A DNA stretch of 64,000 nt from Acetobacteroides hydrogenigenes (GTDB taxonomy: Bacteria; Bacteroidota; Bacteroidia; Bacteroidales; ZOR0009): contig NZ_SLWB01000008.1 in NCBI RefSeq assembly GCF_004340205.1, positions 62,001-126,000 of the forward strand, in the 5' to 3' direction. Each line of letters begins with the position of its first letter. The stretch's first letter is position 1. The notes beneath the pieces were generated by a model. The model was given only the letters and a program-made list of their open reading frames with translations. It had not been told where the DNA came from and did no database searches. Made by a program: the position numbers and the translations under genes. Shown piece after piece: positions 4,829-12,150 of this stretch.

Positions 4829-5317
4829 CTAGTACCTTTTCCTGCTTCGGACAAAGATGGCAACAACTGCCGAAGTGGCAACTCCCATAGCCAGCGACCA
4901 CACTACGCTTTGGATGGCAAAGTTGCTGTAGCTAAAGTACGCCTGAGCCTCCTCTACGGTTTTGAAGTAACCCGTTTTTAAAGAGTACTCTATAACGTTT
5001 GGAAAGTACTCGGGCGTAATCACGTACGAAATCACCCACTGCGAAAGCGGGCTTAAAACGGTAACAATAACGGTAACGATTACCCCCGATACGAATCCCT
5101 GCATATAGGTCATTTCTCCGCCATAGAAGCGTCTCTTCTTATCCCGAAGGGCAAGTACGTAAACCAGAATAGCGGGTAGCATAAACAGCATTGTAAGGTA
5201 CTGCTGCTTGTCGATATGGGTGCTATGTAGCCCTGTAAGCTTTTCTAGAAGCATCCAAGCCAGCATGGTGACAATAAAGATTGCCGCCCACTTTACTTCA
5301 ACGATCCTGCTCTTCAT
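4829..5317 (-). CDS. DUF4199 domain membrane protein
   Basis: This 162-residue integral membrane protein has about four hydrophobic helices (near residues 11-25, 42-57, 70-95 and 128-155) and a conserved central GGEMTYMQGFVSG segment. The pattern and length match the DUF4199 family, common in Bacteroidota, whose function is unknown. It ends in a basic tail (RSRKRY) expected to be cytoplasmic. The next gene leftward is the small glycine-rich protein; a divergent repeat array starts about 165 bp upstream. No catalytic residues are apparent. Confidence 0.85.
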   Translation of the reverse strand: MKSRIVEVKWAAIFIVTMLAWMLLEKLTGLHSTHIDKQQYLTMLFMLPAILVYVLALRDKKRRFYGGEMTYMQGFVSGVIVTVIVTVLSPLSQWVISYVITPEYFPNVIEYSLKTGYFKTVEEAQAYFSYSNFAIQSVVWSLAMGVATSAVVAIFVRSRKRY

Positions 5318-5482
5318 AGTCTTAGATATTGAAAGTTAATAATGATTCCCAGTATGCTGGAGCCCGATCTGAACTACCCGTTGCGTGCTGTTTCTACAAA
5401 ACAGGCACATTCTCATAAAGTTCACGGCTGGGGTGGGCCTCGTTTGTCAAAGACTCGGGCTCCAATAGTCTTAAGCTTTGAA

Positions 5483-8641: not shown

Positions 8642-10048
8642 ATGAATGCAACAACAGACGTAAATGCGCCCTACAACACCGCCATCTTCTACGATGTCGA
8701 AAACCTGATTAAGGGTTACGGGTTCAGCAAGAAGATAGTCCAAGGGCTATCGCTCCACGACATCCTAAAAAAGATTGGTGAAACGGGCAAAACAGGAAGG
8801 ATTGCCAGCCATAAGGCCTATGCCAACTGGCTGAACCCAACTCTTGCGTTCCTGCATGCCGAGCTTATAGATCTCGACATTGAGCCTATTACGGTGACAA
8901 GCCCCAAGGGTGGTGTCATAAAGAACGTTGCAGATATCCGCCTTGCCATAGATGTGGTAGATACGCTGCACAACCATCCCGAGATAACAACCTACGTCAT
9001 TATTTCGGGTGATGGAGCCTATGCCAGCCTAGCCCGCAAGCTGCACGAGTACAGTAAGGTGGTTGTAGGATGTGCCTACAAGCAGTCCACCAACAAGATG
9101 TTTGCCTCGGCCTGCGACCATTTTATTTGGATTGAAGATCCCGAAGTGGACAACGACAAGGTAGAGGTACGCGTTTCTGATACGCGTAGCCAGCACCTCA
9201 TTGAGAAACTGAACGGCAAGGAAGCGAACGAAAGCAACCTTATCTGGATTCGTATAAACGAGCTCCTGGCCGCCTTCGTTGCCTCGAAGGAGTATAAGCG
9301 ATCGCTGGAGAACGGCATTAACCCCTCGGTTATTCGCGAGTTTATTGGGGCTGCCATCCCCAACTTTAATCCTACAATGCTCGGGTTCGACCGCTTTATA
9401 GACTTCCTTGCTCACGCCATCGACAATACCGACCTAGCCATCTACCTATTCCCACCTTCCGATATTAGGATTGGCCTAAAGAGCGCCAAACCGCTTAACT
9501 CTGTAACGCTAAGCAAGGGTAACATAAAGCGCTTTGGGCACGACGATTGTGGCGAGATACGCGACCAGCGAATACGGCGGTTAACCCGTGACGTGAAGTC
9601 GATATCATCTAACGCCAGCACCAAGGAAATAGTGGAAAAATTAAAGGAAGTTATAGAGTGGATAGCTGCCGATTCCGAGTTCAGGGCCAGCCTAACCGAA
9701 GGCGTCAATCCTGCAACCTTCGACTGTGCTATCCGCGAGATTATTGTTGGCTTTACCAATAGCCGACTAGGTTTCTCTAGGCTCTCCGACCTGCTCAGCT
9801 GGCTTACCTGGGATACCGAGCTTTGTATCGTACAGAACCAGGAGAACAAATCAATTTGGAAGGTGCTCCTTCGATCGAATATCCCGGCAGGCTACGCAAC
9901 GTACGAAAGTAAAATGATTCCACAAGGCGACATCGAAGAAGAAAAGGCAAAAGCAACGCCGCTAACCCCTTGGGAACTGAATACTCCACCCAAAGAGAAA
10001 ACAAGTATTATTTGGCAGCTATCGAACCTATTCAGGACGAAGCACTAG
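8642..10048 (+). CDS. NYN (LabA/DUF88-like) nuclease-fold protein with two OST-HTH/LOTUS domains
   Basis: This 468-residue protein starts with a NYN domain (about 11-160) carrying the acidic residues expected of PIN-like RNases: YDVEN (D18, N21), NVADIRLAIDV (D98) and SGDGAY (D124). The usual SGDxD motif has Ala where the second Asp is expected, so activity may be altered. Two OST-HTH/LOTUS-like modules follow, at about 196-270 (EYKRSLENGINPSVIREF) and 320-400 (EFRASLTEGVNPATFDCA); they are internal duplicates. NYN plus LOTUS proteins are thought to act on RNA. A perfect hairpin terminator follows 13 bp after the stop. The biological target is unknown. Confidence 0.88.
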   Translation: MNATTDVNAPYNTAIFYDVENLIKGYGFSKKIVQGLSLHDILKKIGETGKTGRIASHKAYANWLNPTLAFLHAELIDLDIEPITVTSPKGGVIKNVADIRLAIDVVDTLHNHPEITTYVIISGDGAYASLARKLHEYSKVVVGCAYKQSTNKMFASACDHFIWIEDPEVDNDKVEVRVSDTRSQHLIEKLNGKEANESNLIWIRINELLAAFVASKEYKRSLENGINPSVIREFIGAAIPNFNPTMLGFDRFIDFLAHAIDNTDLAIYLFPPSDIRIGLKSAKPLNSVTLSKGNIKRFGHDDCGEIRDQRIRRLTRDVKSISSNASTKEIVEKLKEVIEWIAADSEFRASLTEGVNPATFDCAIREIIVGFTNSRLGFSRLSDLLSWLTWDTELCIVQNQENKSIWKVLLRSNIPAGYATYESKMIPQGDIEEEKAKATPLTPWELNTPPKEKTSIIWQLSNLFRTKH

Positions 10049-10060
10049 CCTAAGGTATAA

Positions 10061-10098
10061 ACACAAACGACCCCGATTCACATCGGGGTCGTTTGTGT
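10061..10098. terminator. Strong bidirectional terminator, shared by the NYN-LOTUS gene and cassette A
   Basis: A 16-bp perfect stem (ACACAAACGACCCCGA and its complement) surrounds a 6-base loop. It ends the NYN-LOTUS gene on the plus strand and the predicted leftward RNA of cassette A on the minus strand. Confidence 0.8.
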
Positions 10099-10176
10099 CT
10101 AACCAATCACCTAAATCTATGAAAAAAACTGTCTAATCATGAGTGTAAAACCTTTGGTTCTCTACCAACGTTTTAC
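10061..10176 (-). ncRNA. Candidate small RNA A (leftward, about 115 nt)
   Basis: On the minus strand, TATGTTTG (10188-10181) is a consensus -7 element. Transcription from about 10176 would begin directly with a hairpin whose arms are GTAAAAC and GTTTTAC (10145-10176). A conserved stretch reading CATAGATTTAGGT follows, and the RNA ends in the terminator at 10061-10098. Cassette B at 10346-10567 repeats the same layout, so the arrangement is unlikely to be chance. No protein of more than a few codons is encoded. The opposite reading, a plus-strand leader with ATG AAA AAA ACT GTC TAA, remains possible. Confidence 0.45.
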
Positions 10177-10180
10177 GATA

Positions 10181-10255
10181 CAAACATACTGCATAAAAAG
10201 TGCGATAGGAGTTAAGGTCTTGTTAGACCTCGTTAATGCTTCGTTAATTGTTAAA
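10181..10255 (-). promoter_or_regulatory. Promoter/operator A: -7 box plus phased GTTA repeats
   Basis: The minus-strand -7 box TATGTTTG is at 10181-10188. On the plus strand, GTTA starts at 10211, 10222, 10232 and 10243, spacings of 11, 10 and 11 bp, with an extra copy at 10250. The first site lies 23 bp from the box. The geometry is identical in cassette B. Direct repeats one helical turn apart are typical of OmpR/PhoB-family response-regulator sites; the regulator here is unknown. Confidence 0.6.
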
Positions 10256-10345
10256 CCTAAACCATCTTCGCTTTTAACGGCCGTTAAAAGCAGCGTTCTA
10301 AGCAGCGTACTTACGACTAAACGTTAGACATCGGAACTTTATAAA

Positions 10346-10380
10346 ATAAGAAGCCCCGATGTCTCATCGGGGCTTCTTAT
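10346..10380. terminator. Terminator of cassette B
   Basis: AAGCCCCGATG and its complement pair around a short loop. The T-rich side is better on the minus strand (TTCTTATTTTAT). The CCCCGAT core is shared with the terminator at 10061. Confidence 0.75.
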
Positions 10381-10494
10381 GTCTAACCAATAACCTAAAG
10401 TCTATGAAAAGGCTGTTTCTACTATTATTCAAACTCTATGGTTTTCTGCGAAAGCATCGCGTGTCCTTCTCGGGTGGCGTTCTGCTTGCTTTAC
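10346..10494 (-). ncRNA. Candidate small RNA B (leftward, about 150 nt)
   Basis: The layout is the same as RNA A: a minus-strand -7 box TATGTTTG at 10506-10499, a 5' end starting GTAAAG, internal stem-loops, then the conserved stretch CATAGACTTTAGGT and a CCCCGAT/ATCGGGG terminator. The conserved part covers the 3' third of both RNAs; the 5' portions have diverged. A plus-strand frame here (start 10404) encodes about 46 basic and hydrophobic residues without a known match, so a small protein on the other strand is not excluded. Confidence 0.45.
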
Positions 10495-10498
10495 AGTA

Positions 10499-10566
10499 CA
10501 AACATACTGCTAGAAATGAGCTGTTGGGGTTAAGGATATGTTAGAGCTGGTTAACATGATGTTAAA
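10499..10566 (-). promoter_or_regulatory. Promoter/operator B: -7 box plus phased GTTA repeats
   Basis: The minus-strand TATGTTTG is at 10499-10506. Plus-strand GTTA sites start at 10529, 10540, 10550 and 10561, again spaced 11, 10 and 11 bp and again 23 bp from the box. It matches operator A in every distance although the sequence between the sites differs. Confidence 0.6.
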
Positions 10567-10866
10567 TGTAGGTGGAGGGAATTTGTGGTATAATCCCATA
10601 TTTTTGATTTCTAGGTATATTGATATCAAACATCTTGTTAAAACGCTTTTCCTCTCACTAAGTAAGGCTATCTTGAAAAAGAATCGGTGAGCAAGAAAGG
10701 CTACCTAAAAGCATTTGTTTAGCCCTATTCAGCTGCACCAAGTGTAGCATTAACAATAACTTCATTTAACGACTTTCGTTTTGCAGTCCCTTATAATCCG
10801 TTGGAAAAAACTCTCAATTGGAATATCTTTGCTGAATTATTGAATGTTATAAAATAAACCCACGGA
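10567..10866. other. Intergenic region upstream of speDE
   Basis: This is AT-rich sequence with no gene-like frame and no hairpin of note. A promoter for the polyamine operon must lie here, but I cannot pick one with confidence. Confidence 0.4.
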
Positions 10867-12150
10867 ATGTCAGCATTAGGAAGGCACATTTTGGTTGAGT
10901 TTATGGGATGTAATCCCGAAATCCTCAACGACGTGTTTGTTATCGAGCAAGGAATGGTGAAAGCCGCTACCAAAGCAGGGGCAACGGTTATTAACTCCAC
11001 CTTTCACCACTTTTCCCCTTACGGAGTATCGGGAGTAGTGGTTATTCAGGAAAGCCACTTAGCCATTCACACATGGCCCGAATACGGTTACGCCGCTGTC
11101 GATTTGTTTACCTGTGGCGATTCGGTAGATCCTTGGATCTCCTTCGACTATCTAAAGAAGGTGTTCGAATCGTCCAACTACTCGGCCCTAGAAATGAAGC
11201 GAGGCTCGCTAAACCTACTTCAACGCATGCATTTCGACATGAACAACATCCGCGAAGAGGCCAAGAAGCACATCAACCCCGAGACCTTTAACCGTAACGT
11301 ATGGTTTACCGACAAGGACGAAAACCAAGCGCTATCGCTACGTTACACCGGTGAGGTGCTTTACGATAAAACTTCAGAGTTCCAGCGCACGCGGATTATC
11401 GATACCTATGCATACGGAACAACGCTCACCATCGATAACATGGTAATGTGTACTGAGAAAGACGAAAGCCACTACCACGAAATGATAAGCCACCCCGCCA
11501 TTCTTTCGCATGGTCATATCAAGAAGGTGTTAGTGATTGGAGGAGGCGATGGAGGAACCATTCGCGAAGTGCTGAGGCACTCTTCGGTAGAAAAAGTTAC
11601 CATGGTGGAAATCGACGAGAATGTTATCGAGGCGTCCAAAATGTACCTACCATCGGTATCGCGCAGCTTTAACCACCCAAAGCTTAAACTTATTGTTGGC
11701 GACGGTATTAAGTTTGTAGAAGAAGCAAAGCCCGAAAGCTACGACCTTATTATTGTAGACGGCTCTGATCCTGTTGGCCCAGCCGAAGGCCTTTTCTCGA
11801 AGAAGTTTTACGAAAGCTGCTTCAACGCGCTAACGCCCAATGGTATTTTGGTTACCCAAGCAGAATCGCCACTATTCAACGATCGAGCCTTTGTAGAGTT
11901 AAACGGATGCCTAAAAGAAGTATTCGGAAACGAAAAAGTAAAAACGCTTCTATTCCATATCCCAACCTATCCATCGGGAACTTGGAGTTTCCAACTAGGT
12001 GTTAAGGGCGATATTGATGTTACCAATGTAAAGGACGAGTGCGCCGAAACATTTGGGAACAACCACCTGCTAAACTACTACAACGCAAACGTACACCGAG
12101 GTGCTTTTGCCCTGCCCAACTTTGTAAAACGAATGCTAAACGAGCTATAA
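10867..12150 (+). CDS. Fused S-adenosylmethionine decarboxylase-spermidine synthase (SpeD-SpeE)
   Basis: This 427-residue protein holds two consecutive steps of spermidine synthesis. Residues 1-120 are a SpeD proenzyme: [15 protein letters not shown] contains the E62-S63 self-cleavage site that creates the pyruvoyl group, with H68 and C83 as expected catalytic residues. Residues about 145-420 are a spermidine synthase: GGGDGG at 226-230 binds decarboxylated SAM, D248-E250 lie in the next strand, and VDGSDP (298-302) carries the catalytic Asp. The fusion would channel decarboxylated SAM to the aminopropyl transfer. The agmatinase-type gene starts 2 bp after the stop and may supply putrescine. 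Confidence 0.94.

Follow-up and report, generated by a model that had tools for sequence, protein, structure and literature searches.

The interval between an NYN-domain gene and a gene for an AdoMet decarboxylase-spermidine synthase fusion in Acetobacteroides hydrogenigenes holds two cassettes that look alike, which raises the question of what they produce and under which regulator. A sequence-only reading of the window (the whole stretch of 64,000 nucleotides analysed) had taken them for promoter-leader-terminator units encoding tandem small RNAs (sRNAs) under one response regulator.

Layout of the twin cassettes

The pair of cassettes is real and occupies minus-strand positions 10058-10565 of the window. 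In each, four direct repeats of the TTAAC type are followed after 22 bp by TATGTTTG, then by a stretch that varies, the conserved core and a CCCCGAT hairpin. The features are:

8642..10048 (+), NYN-domain gene, convergent neighbour, which adjoins the cassettes in both congeners
10247 to 10058 (-), cassette 1, the downstream unit
10211..10247 (-), cassette 1 regulator box of four TTAAC-type half sites, a perfect match to the four-repeat pattern
10181..10188 (-), cassette 1 promoter -7 box TATGTTTG
10058..10175 (-), cassette 1 predicted sRNA of about 118 nt
10099..10128 (-), cassette 1 conserved core with the anti-start seed, from the cassette alignment and FopS seed likeness
10061..10098 (-), cassette 1 CCCCGAT hairpin, presumed terminator, common to the convergent gene end, from fold and covariation
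10565 to 10342 (-), cassette 2, the upstream unit
10529..10565 (-), cassette 2 regulator box of four TTAAC-type half sites, a perfect match to the four-repeat pattern
10499..10506 (-), cassette 2 promoter -7 box TATGTTTG, of the TANNTTTG type
10342..10493 (-), cassette 2 sRNA of about 150 nt, predicted from promoter and hairpin, with the 5' end guessed at about 5 bases past the -7 box
10383..10410 (-), cassette 2 conserved core with the anti-start seed, from the cassette alignment and FopS seed likeness
10347..10379 (-), cassette 2 CCCCGAT hairpin, presumed terminator, from fold and covariation
10867..12150 (+), AdoMet decarboxylase-spermidine synthase fusion gene, the other neighbour, kept in congener G002

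The minus-strand -7 box and the conserved segment with its CCCCGAT hairpin were thus located in each cassette, as the sequence-only reading had described. On the plus strand the GTTA motifs start at 10211, 10222, 10232 and 10243 in cassette 1 and at 10529, 10540, 10550 and 10561 in cassette 2, which keeps the claimed 11-10-11 spacing in both; the gap to the -7 box, given before as 23 bp, was recounted as 22 bp in both. The further claim that all distances are equal stood for the repeat spacing, the repeat-to-box gap and, nearly, the core-to-hairpin distance (46 and 48 bp), but failed in the transcribed part, where box-to-core distances of 64 and 97 bp differ by 33 bp and box-to-hairpin distances are 110 and 145 bp. 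Direct repeats about one helical turn apart, upstream of each promoter, agree with the proposed half-site geometry of OmpR/PhoB-type regulators. When the four-repeat pattern was scanned across the 3.86 Mb genome, as had been suggested, 8 matches were obtained at up to 3 mismatches (1 in the reversed control), and the only perfect ones were these two cassettes.

The region of cassette 1 (10058-10176) folded at -48 kcal/mol (z -7.0) and that of cassette 2 (10342-10486) at -45.8 kcal/mol (z -5.7). A terminator scan listed terminator-like sites here on the plus strand only, since the T-rich part of the minus strand sits inside the stem; minus-strand termination is presumed from the full hairpins.

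Conservation in the genus

The relatives searched comprised two congeners (G001 and G002) and 57 further genomes related at the level of the order only. Beside the same NYN-domain gene, G002 carries three cassettes and G001 one; the AdoMet decarboxylase-spermidine synthase fusion gene was not seen in the G001 stretch. In the alignment of all six cassettes, the repeats, the promoter letters and the core were conserved, and the stretch from promoter to core was variable in both length and sequence. The hairpin was assessed in five cassettes, leaving aside G002_A, a degenerate copy that lacks the usual hairpin: 93.5 percent of cells were paired, and 6 of the 16 pairs had changes on both sides, compared with 0-3 in slid versions.

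As the sequence-only reading had also held, no protein is evident: by eye, no open frame is kept among the aligned cassettes. This bears on the idea that the conserved block is read from the plus strand, as a leader with ATGAAAAAA small frames that would be peptide genes. Two plus-strand frames, 62 and 61 aa long, and ATGAAAA at every core fit such an idea. However, the ATG frames are unrelated in length and sequence (46 aa in cassette 2, 10 aa in G002_B and 31 aa in G002_C), the frame in cassette 1 reads by eye as MKKTV followed by a stop, promoter and repeats are oriented along the minus strand, and like cores elsewhere are followed by minus-sense hairpins. We rejected the peptide genes and kept the reading as minus-strand sRNAs.

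The regulator box beside an RprXY-like gene pair

In this genome the same box, with 2 mismatches, separates a gene for an exported protein from a divergent histidine kinase gene, and each congener has it in the same setting with 1 mismatch. In the genus a response regulator gene lies 3' of that kinase gene. Across the order, three repeats followed by TANNTTTG occurred in 68 of 393 genomes, with two (G166 and G177) in the reversed control. A divergent kinase homologous to the genus kinase was present at 24 of the 30 loci inspected, and behind it an RprY-like regulator in nine of the ten foreign loci fetched at greater length.

The regulator of the pair on contig C4 matched the RprY model best, at 275 bits, which is below the curated cut-off of that model (NCBIfam NF051850, 370 bits); by sequence it is an RprY-like paralogue. 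The genome holds two more RprY-like regulators, on C14 (357 bits; 52 percent identical to the C4 regulator) and on C1 (276 bits). As recognition regions are alike among the three, any of them may be the acting paralogue. Among the stretches examined, a box of at least three repeats at its own promoter was found for the C4 pair only, and the C4 regulator groups with the box-side regulators of G347 and G130 (support 100/99) in a tree in which 7 of the 11 inner forks are unresolved.

Two other views of the box were weighed. Its half-site form and spacing, which we take to resemble those of Bacillus PhoP and cyanobacterial boxes, might mark it as a phosphate (PhoB) box and the transcripts as phosphate-starvation RNAs; the regulator of the pair beside the conserved boxes is RprY-like, not PhoB-like (275 bits, compared with 156 for the Bacteroidota PhoB model), and this view was rejected. 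Repression of the sRNA promoters by the regulator would fit the discussion, in excerpts of PMC3646045 and PMC6032018, of Porphyromonas gingivalis RprY as a repressor of chaperone genes. Against this, the distance from the last half site to the -7 box is 22 bp (21-23 bp among the matches listed, with 18-24 bp allowed), an activator-like placement upstream and clear of the promoter core, and we consider repression improbable and activation the preferred sign.

Other promoters with related boxes were seen. In G001 (L108, C4:80955-80991, minus strand), a four-repeat box with one mismatch lies about 22 bp before TATATTTG and faces a gene that reads by eye like miaB, possibly a further regulon member. 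In this genome (L265, contig C1, minus strand from 2348), two TTAAC repeats precede TACATTTG by about 22 bp; the gene that follows reads like one for an S46-type peptidase and adjoins another RprXY-like pair. Many box promoters at loci L124-L153 drive small exported proteins, divergent from the kinase, which are lysine- and cysteine-rich or repeat-like and whose function is not known.

A seed like that of FopS

The conserved core is antisense to start-codon regions of the form UAACCUAAAU..CUAUGAAAA. When it was compared with the R1' seed consensus, about GTGTTTTTCATAGTATTAGATTTAAGGTTAACAAA, printed in the FopS paper (PMC11697453, seen in excerpt), likeness was found, and shuffled sequences scored as high in 0 of 500 cases for cassette 1 and 5 of 500 for cassette 2. 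For the congener copies, the shuffles as high were 0 for G002_B, 0 for G002_C, 0 for G001 and 53 for G002_A, each of 500. A scan of the whole window with the FopS consensus gave its best score (38) at a gene start at 5308 and its second (34) at cassette 1, and six Markov copies of the window, on one strand, reached 25 to 32. Cassette 1 is thus just above the Markov range; cassette 2 (27) is not and would not stand out in a genome-wide scan. The top match (5308-5342, plus strand) is antisense to the start of the minus-strand ORF 4829-5317, a predicted membrane protein of 162 aa and a candidate target.

Across the order, TTTTCATAG followed by ATTTAGGTTA within 15 bases gave 20 matches in 16 of 393 genomes and none in the control. 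Six of them were RNA-like with a hairpin when judged by eye (G017 twice, G334, G113, G024 and G002), and the remaining 14 appear to be antisense to gene starts; most of these genes encode exported proteins, some of them SusC-like, and a few encode cytosolic ones. A relaxed form of the seed gave 33 matches in 28 genomes (control 2), and by eye 18 of these genomes were sorted as sRNA-type, 8 as antisense to a gene start and 2 (G264 and G146) were left unsorted. In an accessibility computation, no clear advantage of the seed over the remainder of the RNA was seen.

Further RNAs were observed alongside. At L229, L230 and L231 (G000:C1:191745, G001:C74:3199 and G002:C1:1348486), the three congeners share a FopS-like sRNA with TTTTTTCATAGGTTAAGTTTTAGGTTAGG and a hairpin, which has TACCTTTG but no four-repeat box; this boxless third FopS-like RNA of the genus had weaker SusC pairing (z -2.0). 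An extra unit at G001:C4:47239 (L121 / L114) has a degenerate box, TATCTTTG, a hairpin and pieces of TCATAG and TTTTAGGTTA; at 3 mismatches it was found in G001 only, and 10 of 500 shuffles matched its FopS likeness. In a genome of a different family, a tandem pair with identical seeds 193 bp apart lies at L226 (G367:C33:16238 and 16431), where no box was found.

Rfam holds an OmrA-B family. No Rfam family reached its gathering score in the window, and a permissive scan of eight loci returned a tRNA, two weak BTnc231 scores and one weak SprD score. On the G001 cassette, BTnc231 scored 25.5 bits (E 0.25), short of the gathering cut-off of 80.4. Between two genes of G002 (L015, 839-966), it scored a weak 32.2 bits (E 0.005) against the same cut-off. 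The phage collection gave no match.

Box and seed together across the order

The box combined with a TTTTCAT seed gave 10 matches in 9 of 393 genomes and none in the control; two of the ten (L281 and L287) are protein starts. Outside the genus, predicted box-driven seed RNAs comprise a tandem pair in G017 and one RNA in G086; in both genomes the gap between promoter box and closest repeat is about 12 bp, shorter than in the window by one half site. One each occurs in G206, G289 and G107, which belong to one family, with FopS likeness equalled by 24, 23 and 8 of 500 shuffles. In G229, G370 and G100 the RNA is encoded divergently from the kinase gene itself, and FopS likeness beyond the demanded TTTTCAT is weak or absent (54, 20 and 366 of 500). 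The box alone led to G269, where TTTTTTCATTTC lies ahead of the hairpin. We count four families as good cases of box-driven FopS-seed RNAs and three as weak ones.

Predicted targets

Pairing was computed for 83 gene starts from the window and the fetched loci: 19 SusC, 40 other exported proteins and 24 others. A start counted as SusC when its gene, in one of the 19 loci scoring above the TIGR04056 cut-off, encoded at least 900 aa; a SusC tag by protein motif matched 0 of the 83 genes. The cassette 1 core paired with SusC starts at a mean of -17.8 kcal/mol, compared with -12.5 kcal/mol for dinucleotide-shuffled cores (z -10.3), with other exported starts at -15.9 kcal/mol (z -6.7) and with the remaining starts at -14.6 kcal/mol (z -3.3). 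For the cassette 2 core, the z values were -7.7, -8.7 and -4.0, respectively. In a sterner control with antisense sequences of the 83 real starts, the number that paired equally well with SusC was 2 for cassette 1, 5 for cassette 2, 5 for G002_B and 11 for G001. An anti-start seed is well supported. A search for a contiguous 21-base target at up to 3 mismatches matched only cassette 1 itself in the genome.

Which mRNAs would be bound is a finer matter. SusC starts had the lowest mean duplex energy with both RNAs and, for cassette 1, differed from the others (p 0.029), but were not significantly better than other exported starts (p 0.135 for cassette 1 and 0.153 for cassette 2). The RNAs may be real and box-driven with a seed that acts on exported-protein mRNAs generally, or on a few non-SusC targets, and not on SusC as a class; the z values of the other exported starts point that way, as do the non-SusC genes among antisense gene-start matches elsewhere and a 508-aa exported protein of the window, whose gene forms the best duplex with cassette 2 and the second best with cassette 1. 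Apart from the mean energies, the argument for SusC is that FopS sRNAs, with a like seed, repress SusC translation in Bacteroides thetaiotaomicron (PMC11697453, in excerpt). In this computation the bias towards SusC relative to other exported proteins is weak, and it leans mainly on this FopS precedent; we nevertheless hold the general or non-SusC targeting to be rather unlikely, and the preferred reading keeps SusC-like proteins among the probable targets.

Negative feedback on the kinase mRNA was considered and is not claimed: cassette 2 paired with the kinase start of this genome at -22.4 kcal/mol and with those of the congeners at -16.8 and -13.9 kcal/mol.

Proposed circuit

The comparison, with its box beside a kinase-regulator pair and its FopS-like core, favours the original proposal of tandem sRNAs under one response regulator. 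On balance, we think it probable that the cassettes encode tandem FopS-seed sRNAs, activated by an RprXY-type system, that limit SusC-like and other envelope proteins. The anatomy, the conservation, the box-kinase-regulator link, the seed likeness and the start complementarity above shuffled controls come out of the computation; we infer the transcription, the binding of the regulator and its sign, the acting RprY paralogue, the repression and the signal. An envelope signal would act through the kinase on an RprY-type response regulator of the OmpR/PhoB family, most likely that of the C4 pair, whose own divergent promoter carries the same box. On four half sites spaced by 11 bp, the regulator would activate TANNTTTG 22 bp downstream. 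Each predicted RNA would end at a strong hairpin, with the start-antisense seed just ahead of it, and the seed would pair with the translation start of mRNAs for SusC-like transporters and probably other exported proteins. Such pairing would block translation, and synthesis of outer-membrane proteins would fall on the envelope signal.

In gut Bacteroides, FopS sRNAs keep glycan importers in check; the excerpt of PMC11697453 gives them 14 copies and sigma-ABfr promoters, with a further transcriptional regulator stated as not known. The link of a two-component regulator box to sRNAs with a FopS-like seed is new, and among the papers listed by searches of open-licence PubMed Central full texts none was seen to connect an RprY-type regulator with an sRNA. 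As the sRNAs and the gene pair of their likely regulator share the box, an RprY-type regulator becomes a candidate for the missing FopS regulator. More tentatively, and with doubt prevailing, the circuit may be order-wide, resembling OmpR-OmrA/B but of independent origin: an RprXY-type system, acting on its own divergent promoter by way of a four-TTAAC box, would drive FopS-seed sRNAs as well (single, tandem or kinase-divergent) and shut off SusC-type importers under envelope stress, and the FopS activator of Bacteroides would belong to the same regulator family.

Comparison with known systems

The predicted RNAs are FopS-seed sRNAs and not members of FopS: the seeds are alike, and length and seed position differ. 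According to excerpts of PMC11697453 and PMC7366714, FopS and the R1 of GibS share with them the seed TTTTTCATAG..GATTTA(A)GGTTA, and FopS also shares predicted start-codon pairing on SusC-like mRNAs, several related copies and a hairpin end. However, FopS RNAs, which are bound by RbpB, are given a length of about 65-70 nt and a 5'-terminal seed, whereas those predicted here are about 118-150 nt, carry the seed directly ahead of the hairpin at a distance of 50 and 83 nt from the predicted 5' end, and come as two tandem copies with an RprY-type box.

The system resembles RprX/RprY in that the RprY model is the best match for the regulators beside the box, and differs in that the regulator of the C4 pair is a paralogue. 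In P. gingivalis, RprY binds to its own promoter (PMC3646045, PMC6032018 and PMC5706477), and excerpts of these papers gave neither a TTAAC consensus nor an sRNA target for RprY.

From OmrA/OmrB of the Escherichia coli EnvZ/OmpR system, the cassettes differ in that no sequence relation was found (no Rfam match in the window) and negative feedback on the kinase operon is not supported. The likeness, taken from excerpts of PMC4211561 and PMC12692685, lies in tandem twins with conserved ends and divergent middles, an OmpR-family regulator, and TonB-dependent outer-membrane receptors among the targets. If the proposed circuit is true, it would be a second case in which a two-component system controls tandem sRNAs directed against outer-membrane receptors.
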